Shown: positions 1,687 through 4,831 of the stretch, piece by piece | How positions within the stretch are numbered: the first letter of the stretch is position 1 | How the letters are laid out: every line of letters begins with the position of its first letter | Notes under the pieces: generated by a model | What the model was told of the DNA's origin: nothing | The model's database searches: none | Seen by the model: only the letters and a program-made list of their open reading frames with translations | NCBI GenBank assembly: GCA_016845175.1 | Contig: JAERTD010000077.1 | Coordinates: 62,001 to 126,000 of the forward strand | Reading direction: 5' to 3' | From: Bacteroidota bacterium | Lineage (GTDB): Bacteria > Bacteroidota > Bacteroidia > Bacteroidales > F082 | Length of the DNA stretch: 64,000 nucleotides | Program-made: the position numbers and the translations under genes

Positions 1687-2121
1687 CTAATCAACTTGCT
1701 TTGTTTGGGTAATGATTATCGCAACGTTTAACACACCACTGTTCATAATGGGCACGGCCTTAAAAAACACTTGTTTGAAAATGATTTGATCATTGACCTG
1801 AAAATCTCTTACAAAATTATTGGCCGACACCCCTTTTGAATTGAAAACCTCATCAATACTTAATCGGAAACCGCAAATGTTACAGGCATAGGTAAACCCA
1901 CAATCATGGTCATCCTTAACTAAATACCGGCATCCCACAGCATTGCCATAATTTTTATTTAATATATTTTTTGCGGGTTGTTGTACCATTTCTTCAAAAG
2001 CAGTATTTACATAGACAACCTCGTACATTGGATTAACAACGAGCACTGGTTCTTCCATATGAGACAGTATTTGCTCAAAATTATGTAACAACTCATTTTT
2101 ATCTGTCTGCAGTAAATCCAT
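1687..2121 (-). CDS. Small PAS-domain protein with a four-cysteine motif
   Basis: A 144-residue soluble protein made almost entirely of one PAS domain (about residues 18-140: EEPVLVVNPMYEVVYVNTAFEEM is the typical PAS start, and VLNVAIIITQT the last strand). Inside the domain there is a cysteine pattern C64, C74, C80, C83 in the order GC..., DCGF..., CNICG. I recall this GC-x(n)-GCG-x(n)-CxxC pattern in other bacterial signalling PAS domains, where it could bind a metal, a cluster or act as a thiol switch; that is inference. It starts 9 bases after the stop of the hybrid kinase, so it is probably the third gene of the H-NOX operon and may serve as an accessory sensor. ATG start. Confidence 0.75.
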   Translation of the reverse strand: MDLLQTDKNELLHNFEQILSHMEEPVLVVNPMYEVVYVNTAFEEMVQQPAKNILNKNYGNAVGCRYLVKDDHDCGFTYACNICGFRLSIDEVFNSKGVSANNFVRDFQVNDQIIFKQVFFKAVPIMNSGVLNVAIIITQTKQVD

Positions 2122-2130
2122 GGATTTGTT

Positions 2131-3495
2131 TTAAGATGATTTACGAAAGTTGGACAAAGTTTCATAAAGATGAATAGGATTCACTGGTTTGGTAACAAAC
2201 CCATTCATACCTGCTTCATATACCTCCCTTTTGGAATTCTCAAATGCATTAGCTGTAAACGCGATAACCGGGATATCCTTAACGGCCTGGAAACGACTAT
2301 CAGTCCTGATAATTCGTGTAGCATCACAGCCAGACATTTCAGGCATTTGCATATCCATTAAGACCAGATCATACTCATGTTTATCAAGGAGGGAAAGGGC
2401 TTCCTGTCCGCTGGAAACTAGGTCCACTTCAACCCCCCACTTTTGCAATATCTGACCTACAACAAGCTGGTTTATAGCCATATCATCAGCAACGAGAACC
2501 TTTAAATCCAGTGCTTCATATACCCTTTGCTTTGTTTCCTTCTTCCGACTCTCTTTCTGGGATATAAATACAAGAGGCAGACTAAAATAAAAAGTTGAAC
2601 CTTTACCATAAGTACTTGTTACCCCAATTTTTCCCCCTTGCAGTTCTATGAAGTTCTTGGTGATGGTTAGCCCTAATCCTGTACCTCCATAGGTTCGACC
2701 TATGGAACTGTCGCTTTGAGTAAAACTATCGAAGACAGATTCAAGTTTTTCTTTTTTAATACCAATACCGGTATCTTGTATTTCAAAATAAACAGTAACC
2801 CTATTATCTTTTCTGTTTTTTGACTCAAGGCCACAGGAAACCTTCACATGGCCCTTTTCAGTGAATTTCAAGGCATTACCCACCAGGTTATTAATGATCT
2901 GATTAAGTTTGACTACATCTCCTTGTAGTAATTCCGGCACCTCATCATCTATATCCAGAAAAAGTTTCAGGCCTTTTTGTTTCGCAGTTATTGAAAGGTT
3001 TTTGTACAATACCTTAAGTATATCAGGTAAATTGAATTGTACTTTCTCAAAAGTTATTTTTCCTGCTTCGATTTTTGAGAAATCTAAGATCTCATTGATT
3101 ACATCAGCGAGATGGGTTGCAGAGAATTTAATATTGGAAAGCATATCCTTGACCTTGTCATTGACATCCTCATCGAGGATGAGATCCGTTAAACCTATGA
3201 CACCATTAAGCGGTGTCCGCAATTCATGGGTCATACTGGATAAAAAATCTGATTTTGCTTTCGTGGCTTCCTCTGCGATACGCTTGGCAACGATTAATTT
3301 TTGTCTGGAATCTTCAATATCTTTGGTTCTCTCCTCAATTCGTATTTCAAGATCTTGATTAACCTTCTTCAACTTCTCATTAACAAAGAAAATTTCTGCA
3401 GATTTCTCTTCGATAATACGCTCGGCTTCTTTTCGGGATTTTCTTTCCCGGATCATGGCCTTATATAAGGCATCGTATTTTTCCTTCGAAATCAC
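2131..3495 (-). CDS. Hybrid histidine kinase/response regulator, probable H-NOX partner
   Basis: A 454-residue cytoplasmic protein without membrane segments. Residues 1-80 form a charged coiled coil. The HisKA domain has the phospho-acceptor H90 in SSMTHELRTPLNG, followed by an HATPase domain (N box near INNLVGNALKFT, G1 box DTGIGI, G2 GGTGLGLTI) and a C-terminal receiver domain (VLVADDMAINQ, phospho-acceptor D381 in LVLMDMQMPEM, and KPV lysine). There is no sensory domain of its own, which fits control by the H-NOX protein encoded ten bases upstream. In known H-NOX/kinase pairs, NO-bound H-NOX inhibits the kinase autophosphorylation. No output domain follows, so phosphate must pass to a partner elsewhere. 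Start codon is GTG; an ATG at residue 14 is an alternative. Confidence 0.9.
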   Translation of the reverse strand: MISKEKYDALYKAMIRERKSRKEAERIIEEKSAEIFFVNEKLKKVNQDLEIRIEERTKDIEDSRQKLIVAKRIAEEATKAKSDFLSSMTHELRTPLNGVIGLTDLILDEDVNDKVKDMLSNIKFSATHLADVINEILDFSKIEAGKITFEKVQFNLPDILKVLYKNLSITAKQKGLKLFLDIDDEVPELLQGDVVKLNQIINNLVGNALKFTEKGHVKVSCGLESKNRKDNRVTVYFEIQDTGIGIKKEKLESVFDSFTQSDSSIGRTYGGTGLGLTITKNFIELQGGKIGVTSTYGKGSTFYFSLPLVFISQKESRKKETKQRVYEALDLKVLVADDMAINQLVVGQILQKWGVEVDLVSSGQEALSLLDKHEYDLVLMDMQMPEMSGCDATRIIRTDSRFQAVKDIPVIAFTANAFENSKREVYEAGMNGFVTKPVNPIHLYETLSNFRKSS

Positions 3496-3505
3496 TGGTT
3501 GTCCC

Positions 3506-4045
3506 TTATTTTTTCTGGATAGAAAACTTAACTACCGAACCATCTTCTTCTATAAGTTCTTTTGTAATTGCAACCTCTTCTTTATAATATTTGGCTGCTC
3601 CCTGCAATAAACCCAGGGCAAAATCACTTAATTTACGCTGTGAGGTATATATGATCTCTATATAACCTTCTTTCCTCTTGACGGTTTGTATCGATGGTAG
3701 TTCAGCATCGGTGTATAGCTTTAAAACTTCCACATGAATGTACTTATCTATTTGGTTAACAAAATCAAAGAAATTCACACCATCACCAAAGAACTGTGGA
3801 TACAGGCTGGAAAACCGGTCGAATAAATGCATTCCATATAAATTCAGCAGCTTTGGAATTTCCATTTTTGTTTTGGCTGATAATACCCCCAGCATACTTA
3901 TCATTTCTGCTGCCTCATATGTTCCAACTGCTGTATAAACTCCATTTGTAATAGTATCAGCCTTGTCAATCATATGTTGTGAGATTTCGAAACCAAAAGT
4001 ATCTTCAACATATTCAATAAATTCAGTAAAAACAATTCCCTTCAT
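3506..4045 (-). CDS. Haem NO-binding protein, H-NOX (HNOB) family
   Basis: A 179-residue protein matching the stand-alone bacterial H-NOX length. The proximal haem ligand is H104 in KYIHVEVLKLYTDAELPS, and the haem-propionate-binding YxSxR motif is present as Y133-T-S135-Q-R137. The conserved proline after the histidine (ELPS, P118) is also present. H-NOX proteins of this kind bind NO on ferrous haem and control a neighbouring kinase or diguanylate cyclase. Here the next gene on the same strand is a hybrid kinase lacking its own sensor, so the NO-to-kinase pathway is the natural reading. The distal pocket residue that would give O2 binding (a tyrosine in obligate anaerobes) cannot be placed with certainty. 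ATG start; a TATATTTG element lies about 37 bases upstream. Confidence 0.93.
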   Translation of the reverse strand: MKGIVFTEFIEYVEDTFGFEISQHMIDKADTITNGVYTAVGTYEAAEMISMLGVLSAKTKMEIPKLLNLYGMHLFDRFSSLYPQFFGDGVNFFDFVNQIDKYIHVEVLKLYTDAELPSIQTVKRKEGYIEIIYTSQRKLSDFALGLLQGAAKYYKEEVAITKELIEEDGSVVKFSIQKK

Positions 4046-4081: not shown

Positions 4082-4089
4082 CAAATATA
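4082..4089 (-). promoter_or_regulatory. Putative -7 promoter element for the H-NOX operon
   Basis: The minus strand reads TATATTTG here, an exact match to the Bacteroidota -7 consensus TAnnTTTG, about 37 bases before the H-NOX start codon. I do not see a convincing TTTG -33 box at 19-20 bases. Confidence 0.45.
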
Positions 4090-4297
4090 GTGATTTTACA
4101 GTTTGTTCGAGAGGGAATTAAAATCGTCTTTATTCTGTTTTAAGAGGGATAGTATTAGCAAATAAAATGACATATTATTCTTCCTGCTGATACTATTGAG
4201 CACATTTATTGAAGCTAAACCTTTGAATTCATCAATAGCCGGTATGGTATCAGCATTCCAGAAAACTTGACTATTATTGCCAATCAAAACCAAGAAT

Positions 4298-4831
4298 ATG
4301 TTACAAAAATGCCTCTCATTAGTCTTTGTCATAACTGTCTTTTCTCAGCTATTGCATGCTCAAATGTCAAAGGACACAGGATTCTTCGTCAGCATTGGAG
4401 AAGAAGCTCCAGCAGTGGAGATGATGCTCACATCAGGTGAGAAACTTACACTGGAGGAACTCAGGGGTAAGGTAGTACTGCTTCAGTTTACAGCCAGCTG
4501 GTGTAGTGTATGCCGAAAGGAAATGCCTCATCTGGAAAAGGAAATCTGGCAGGTACACAAAGACAAAGACTTCATTCTGATTGGTGTCGATTATGACGAA
4601 CCTTTGGAAAAGGTGGTAGCTTTTAAGGAAAAGATGAAAGTCTCCTACCCGATGGCTCTTGATCCCGACGCAGACATTTTTGCACAATTTGCCCACAAAA
4701 AAAGTGGTGTTACCAGAAATGTTCTTATTGATAAAGAAGGAAAAATTGCTTTTCTTACCCGACTCTTTGATGCGAAGGAATTCCAGGCCTTGAAGGATAA
4801 AGTTGCTGAATTAGTAGATGAAGAACAGTAG
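4298..4831 (+). CDS. TlpA/ResA-like secreted thioredoxin-fold protein
   Basis: A 177-residue protein with a signal peptide (MLQKCLSLVFVITV...LLHAQ) and a redoxin/AhpC-TSA thioredoxin fold. The redox motif is WCSVC within FTASWCSVCRKEMPHLEKE, followed by a TlpA-type insert and a cis-proline-like GVTRNVLIDKEGKI segment. Such proteins reduce or maintain thiols of exported proteins or cytochromes in the periplasm of Bacteroidota. I start it at the ATG at 4298, because the signal peptide begins there; an in-frame TTG at 4277 would add seven polar residues. It is monocistronic between divergent or convergent neighbours. The exact substrate cannot be told. Confidence 0.85.
   Translation: MLQKCLSLVFVITVFSQLLHAQMSKDTGFFVSIGEEAPAVEMMLTSGEKLTLEELRGKVVLLQFTASWCSVCRKEMPHLEKEIWQVHKDKDFILIGVDYDEPLEKVVAFKEKMKVSYPMALDPDADIFAQFAHKKSGVTRNVLIDKEGKIAFLTRLFDAKEFQALKDKVAELVDEEQ

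Follow-up and report, generated by a model that had tools for sequence, protein, structure and literature searches.

A free-standing cysteine-loop PAS protein recurs beside an H-NOX and hybrid kinase gene pair in one Bacteroidales lineage

The DNA considered here, referred to as the window, is a stretch of 64,000 nucleotides from a Bacteroidales genome (assembly GCA_016845175.1, contig JAERTD010000077.1, positions 62,001 to 126,000). Its minus strand encodes three proteins in close succession: an H-NOX nitric oxide (NO) sensor; a soluble hybrid histidine kinase; and a small PAS protein with a cysteine loop, here termed PAS-Cys. The intergenic gaps are 10 and 9 bp. A preliminary description, made from the sequence alone, viewed these genes as a compact three-gene arrangement, and this is upheld by the recurrence of the same order at nine other distinct loci. 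A known H-NOX/kinase pair is joined here by a third, uncharacterised PAS-Cys subunit, recurrent in one Bacteroidales lineage. Table 1 gives the positions.

Table 1. Positions in the window of the three genes and of their principal elements.
Feature	Position	Strand	Basis
H-NOX, haem NO sensor, 179 aa	3506..4045	-	Pfam HNOB and alignment
H104 codon, expected axial haem ligand	3734..3736	-	Sequence and 8-sequence alignment
YxSxR haem-propionate motif, residues 133-137	3635..3649	-	8-sequence alignment
Soluble hybrid histidine kinase, HisKA-HATPase-REC, without sensor or Hpt, 454 aa, GTG start	2131..3495	-	Pfam and alignment
H90 codon, expected phospho-accepting histidine	3226..3228	-	Invariant in 10-kinase alignment
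D381 codon, expected receiver phospho-aspartate	2353..2355	-	Invariant in 10-kinase alignment
Free-standing PAS-Cys protein, 144 aa	1687..2121	-	Pfam PAS, PAS-matching fold model, recurrence at 9 other loci
Cysteine loop G59-x4-C64-x9-C74-G-x4-C80-x2-C83	1873..1947	-	Alignments of operon copies
Possible Bacteroidota -7 promoter element TATATTTG	4082..4089	-	36 bp before H-NOX start codon; weak; presumed consensus, chance-level density

The first two genes form a hybrid-kinase pair. H-NOX matches Pfam HNOB over the whole domain (E=2.2e-37, model positions 1-162 of 163); the closest solved chain by sequence is 6bde (E=5.2e-36); and H104, Y133, S135, and R137 are invariant in an alignment of eight H-NOX sequences, in agreement with the histidine and YxSxR motif first noted. 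The kinase directly adjoins H-NOX and carries HisKA (residues 80-145), HATPase_c (192-308), and Response_reg (333-447) domains, with residues H90, D338, and D381 invariant among ten aligned kinases. Pfam found neither a sensor domain nor an Hpt domain in it, which agrees with the earlier view of a soluble hybrid kinase that lacks its own sensor.

The third protein is, as described, a PAS protein with four cysteines (PF00989, E=2e-6, above the Pfam cut-off; residues 64, 74, 80, and 83). It matches the pattern G-x4-C-x9-C-G-x4-C-x2-C, which defines the PAS-Cys subfamily named in this analysis. Residues G59, C64, C80, and C83 are invariant in an alignment of seven operon copies; among all ten copies, positions C64, C80, and C83 are kept in 10/10, and C74 in 7/10. 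A fold model of the window protein adopts a PAS-like topology with moderate confidence (mean pLDDT 73.5), and its best Foldseek matches, with TM-scores of roughly 0.5 to 0.6, are ordinary PAS domains such as those of NifL, MmoS, DosP, and LOV proteins. A sequence profile found no Protein Data Bank chain with the cysteine loop, its matches covering mostly the N-terminal half of the PAS domain; zinc-finger, USP36, and XPD chains that reach the cysteine region (E 0.37 to 0.48) were judged chance matches.

H-NOX matches were obtained in 22 of 393 genomes of the order, 4 of 60 of the family, 54 of 295 of the class (one below cut-off), and 27 of 395 of the phylum; each count includes the window's genome, and the samples overlap. 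Three weak or broken class-level places (G622 twice, G447) were left out. The first set of neighbourhoods comprised 102 loci including the window, of which 97 have a called H-NOX gene and 5 were dropped. The second comprised 80 of 548 relatives from a wider contig search with an H-NOX alignment as query, used in place of a single-sequence contig scan for the PAS protein, in which no relative was detected; here L236, L261, and L281 were dropped for an uncalled H-NOX gene, and the remaining 77 include three copies (L214, L216, and L218, excluded as copies of L190, L189, and L055).

The order H-NOX, sensorless hybrid kinase, PAS-Cys is present at ten distinct loci: the window; L060; L064; L066; L072; L189 (Marinilabiliales metagenome-assembled genome [MAG] BM719); L190 (Bacteroidetes MAG BH25); L215; L220 (Bacteroidales MAG); and L228 (Prolixibacteraceae MAG). 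Gaps range from -8 to +10 bp between H-NOX and kinase, and from -17 to +10 bp between kinase and PAS-Cys. The gene after PAS-Cys lies on the same strand, 38 to 182 bp away, at seven loci and is convergent at three. A profile built from 38 PAS-Cys sequences includes these ten, which therefore match it by construction; the informative part is that nothing else near H-NOX matches it at full length. Full-length matches are limited to the ten (and two copies), each immediately following the kinase; a further 126 stretches match in part, chiefly along the N-terminal half of kinase-borne PAS domains, and lack the cysteine motif. The preliminary description had named as contrary evidence a PAS gene missing from all other H-NOX neighbourhoods and equipped with its own promoter; instead, the gene abuts or overlaps the 3' end of the H-NOX kinase gene at nine other loci.

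The distribution is sharply bounded. Among the 27 loci from the order and family searches, including the window, PAS-Cys accompanies 7/7 complete sensorless pairs. Counting every locus, a complete sensorless kinase follows H-NOX in 28 cases, 10 of them with PAS-Cys and 18 without. ("Sensorless" here means an H-box before residue 130; Pfam found no sensor in those examined, namely the window kinase, L060, and L228 of the ten, and L103, L116, and L249 of the 18. Setting aside L055, L238, and L247 as incomplete reduced the total from 31 to 28; the L055 contig ends inside the kinase and so is uninformative about a third gene.) The 18 include members of the Bacteroidota (among others L103, L106, L108, L219, and L279) and of the Proteobacteria (Iodobacter, Janthinobacterium, Leucothrix, and Thiomicrorhabdus). 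Among them the H-NOX proteins of L260 and L262 are identical, and those of L243, L255, and L266 are 91-94% identical. The expectation of a recurrent PAS-Cys gene in H-NOX neighbourhoods is thus borne out at nine other loci, within a limit: all belong to a single Bacteroidales lineage, and the third gene is not a feature of Bacteroidota H-NOX at large. In titles and abstract openings of the open-licence literature, neither the three-gene set nor the cysteine loop was found, which is no proof of novelty.

Within the ten loci, H-NOX and the kinase each have a mean pairwise identity of 49%, and PAS-Cys one of 23%. Pairwise identities correlate between the proteins (H-NOX/kinase r=0.88, H-NOX/PAS r=0.73, kinase/PAS r=0.85; Mantel p<0.001 for all three). 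In a 170-row H-NOX tree, 3 changes are needed to account for the ten loci, which lie inside a 12-row set (support 85/95, not starred), whose other two rows are L055 and the long-branched Campylobacteraceae row L289; L213 (79 aa) was not included. In a 61-row tree without L055, the ten lie on one side of a branch (50/79, bootstrap not settled). The loci group in H-NOX trees without strong support, and a single origin is allowed; one gain followed by retention would be the simplest reading. Such a history could also suit a passenger gene, inserted once in an ancestor 3' of the kinase and inherited without joint function, and the grouping of the ten loci and the rapid divergence of PAS-Cys, the fastest-evolving of the three proteins, both point that way. 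We nevertheless consider a passenger improbable: PAS-Cys is kept at 10/10 loci across several families and wide divergence (H-NOX as low as 36% identical), always abutting the kinase and with its cysteine loop largely intact, while flanking genes differ in length and strand among most loci (L190 and L215 share theirs).

PAS-Cys domains are also found away from H-NOX. With the window PAS protein as query, 53/393 genomes of the order gave matches, at 67 places, of which 30 were examined (including the window and one operon copy). All 30 carry G-x4-C-x(7-9)-C-x(5-7)-C-x2-C, nearly always with spacings of x9, x5, and x2. In the 38 aligned members, all collected by similarity, cysteines 1, 3, and 4 are invariant, and at least 90% have the second. 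Searches of the 38 against Pfam and NCBIfam matched no loop-specific model; general PAS models and PAS-holding kinase models were prominent. Of eight longer PAS-Cys proteins scanned with Pfam, six have a histidine-kinase ATPase domain after PAS, the other two running off the locus end. The loop marks a PAS subfamily that also serves as input domain of Bacteroidales kinases. At L300:54-3583 one PAS-Cys kinase has rnf genes nearby (Pfam matches to RnfC, RnfD, and Rnf-Nqr subunits), an arrangement also seen by eye at L310. Short PAS-Cys proteins of 157-221 aa form another group in Bacteroidales, at L134, L135, L139, L144, L146, L147, and L148; inspection by eye of 2-3 kb around each found no H-NOX gene or obvious operon.

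This wider family bears on the direction in which signal might pass. Being last in order, the PAS-Cys gene occupies the position of the output response regulator in several relatives, so the protein could be imagined as an output or antagonist that receives the state of the H-NOX kinase instead of giving it input. This seems very improbable, because PAS-Cys domains precede kinase cores elsewhere and because PAS-Cys has no invariant His or Asp; it cannot replace an Hpt or a receiver, and both roles were ruled out.

What the loop might bind is suggested by its exceptions. The second cysteine is missing in L064, L066, and L228, where the residue six positions before the third cysteine is Glu, His, and Glu, respectively; these substitutions, only three cases, would fit a metal ligand. 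The pattern C-x9-C-x5-C-x2-C with such Cys-to-His/Glu exchange suits zinc as well as an iron-sulfur (Fe-S) cluster, and according to PMC6624279, Cys4 and Cys2-His-Cys coordination is typical for structural zinc. PAS-Cys might therefore sense nothing and instead act as an adaptor or structural subunit, stabilising the kinase/H-NOX complex or determining its location. We regard this as rather unlikely: the same source describes a PAS zinc site that regulates a kinase, and Glu as infrequent in structural sites, and the PAS-Cys domains ahead of kinase cores suit an input role. The CxxC motif raises the further idea of a metal-free thiol/disulfide redox switch on the kinase, as ArcB responds through two cysteines of its cytoplasmic PAS domain (excerpt of PMC4601167). 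There is little to recommend it here, since three kept cysteines with Glu, His, or Glu at the second site fit ligands better than a disulfide pair.

How could a separate PAS protein serve this kinase? Among 85 H-NOX-adjacent hybrid kinases, the H-box falls into steps: before residue 121 in 29 (one a truncated open reading frame); at 199-218 in 16; at 307-359 in 16; at 416-468 in 14; and elsewhere in 10. By Pfam, three kinases from the upper steps carry one, two, and three PAS domains, and three from the first step carry zero. Many H-NOX kinases of this kind, then, hold PAS domains between an N-terminal helix (seen by eye) and HisKA, which makes a PAS input in trans plausible. The Bacteroidales set has no cis PAS domain and a single trans one. 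The latter is probably not a split-off cis copy, because it has the cysteine loop, and no profile-matched cis PAS does.

The preliminary description further held that some other protein must carry the signal onward, and the relatives fit this. In two Saprospiraceae MAGs (L246, L221) and in Neolewinella (L290), the H-NOX kinase ends in an Hpt domain and is followed by a REC-LytTR gene. The window operon resembles these linked phosphorelays in that H-NOX adjoins a HisKA-HATPase-REC kinase; it differs in that their kinases carry one to three PAS domains in cis, whereas here PAS is in trans with a cysteine loop, and both the Hpt domain and the REC-LytTR gene are missing from the operon. The window's genome has six LytTR matches and six Hpt matches. 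Two of the latter are in small stand-alone proteins, which are candidate partners: one of 132 aa (L295, G000:C11), and one of 113 aa (L299, G000:C35) beside a REC-sigma54-activator gene. An unlinked partner has precedent in HqsK of Vibrio parahaemolyticus, where hnoX and a hybrid kinase share one operon and phosphate passes His-Asp-His from the kinase to a separate Hpt, LuxU (available text of PMC6759604).

Other known systems share parts of this design. HahK of V. fischeri is named in an abstract as controlled by HnoX; unlike the HqsK and HahK pairs, the present set has PAS-Cys as a third gene, a kinase without a sensor domain, and no linked Hpt or regulator. The NreABC operon of staphylococci, as excerpted in PMC4601167, combines a small GAF protein, NreA (thought to be a nitrate sensor), with a cytoplasmic kinase whose PAS domain has four cysteines. 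There, however, the NreB PAS domain is in cis and binds [4Fe-4S], and the regulator NreC is in the operon, whereas here the cysteine-bearing PAS is separate and H-NOX is the other sensor. A cysteine motif for Fe-S is also reported in nine PAS domains of one cluster, with reference to NreB (excerpt of PMC10468136). The Bacteroidales PAS-Cys sensor kinases (for example L131 and L133) have the same G-x4-C-x9-C-G-x4-C-x2-C domain, fused before HisKA and HATPase, in contrast to the free-standing form in the window.

The best supported reading, though not proven, is that a single soluble hybrid kinase takes input in trans from two small cytoplasmic sensors, each produced as a protein of its own; we give it a probability of about 0.6. 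For the cofactor, the signal, the docking site, the direction of regulation, and the Hpt partner, we infer the following scheme. The Fe(II) haem of H-NOX would report NO, as in known H-NOX/kinase pairs. PAS-Cys would be a second input domain, its loop probably holding a metal ion or Fe-S cluster through C64, C74, C80, and C83, and would report metal, redox, O2, or NO state. It may dock near the N-terminal helix of the kinase, where relatives carry PAS in cis. The kinase would autophosphorylate on H90 and pass phosphate to D381, from where it would go on to an Hpt protein and a response regulator, both unlinked. A more specific version is speculative and has a modest chance at best: PAS-Cys may hold a new type of Fe-S cluster, or a labile metal site, that reacts with NO or O2. 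One sensorless kinase would then read NO through two receptors, the haem at low concentrations and the cluster at high ones, or would read it only in the right redox state, as a two-receptor coincidence detector assembled from separate subunits. Known H-NOX/kinase systems in the literature examined have one sensor per kinase. The two-sensor reading, if true, would mean that two separate trans sensors can serve one soluble kinase. The small, soluble, one-operon system is also suited to finding the cofactor of this PAS subfamily.

Several points weigh against the two-sensor reading. That PAS-Cys senses anything, touches the kinase, or binds a metal or cluster is argued from sequence patterns. 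PAS-Cys is missing beside every one of the 18 remaining complete sensorless H-NOX kinases (roughly 15 once near-identical ones are merged). The missing second cysteine in 3/10 copies does not favour a strict four-cysteine cluster, and the loop itself (residues 66-82) is modelled at pLDDT <50 and is unreliable. The cysteine spacing of NreB is unlike that of PAS-Cys. So is that of AirS, given in the available text of PMC4601167 as Cys-X7-Cys-X-Cys-X17-Cys, against x9, x5, and x2 here. Correlated divergence of the three proteins is also expected from shared descent alone. Finally, cotranscription of the three genes would follow from their spacing, on which it rests because scans for promoter-like and terminator-like signals came out at chance.

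In those scans, the element upstream of H-NOX was recognised by a TAnnTTTG pattern, which we take to be the Bacteroidota promoter consensus. It occurs 70 times in the window against 66.5 expected, a chance density. No minus-strand TAnnTTTG was found within the kinase gene, and a promoter of its own for the PAS gene was rejected on this count, weakly, given that density. Sigma-70-like sites around the operon were likewise at chance (11 found, 10.5 expected). A terminator 3' of the PAS gene was dropped, as the hairpin there folds no better than shuffles (z=-0.09).

Upstream of H-NOX, a divergent gene (4277-4831, plus strand) encodes an AhpC/TlpA-like thioredoxin. No other match was found within four genes of H-NOX among the other loci examined, and the gene was therefore excluded from the system. 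Elsewhere, a different small protein (72-97 aa, the copies alike by eye) is encoded 36-73 bp downstream of a sensorless H-NOX kinase at L108:4925-5218, L219:6121-6345, and L279:6939-7157; the L219 copy has no Pfam match. A different H-NOX and PAS arrangement occurs at L063, where H-NOX is followed by a 198-aa PAS protein without the cysteine loop and then by a SpoIIE-type phosphatase (2862-3458 and 1786-2859, respectively, both on the minus strand).

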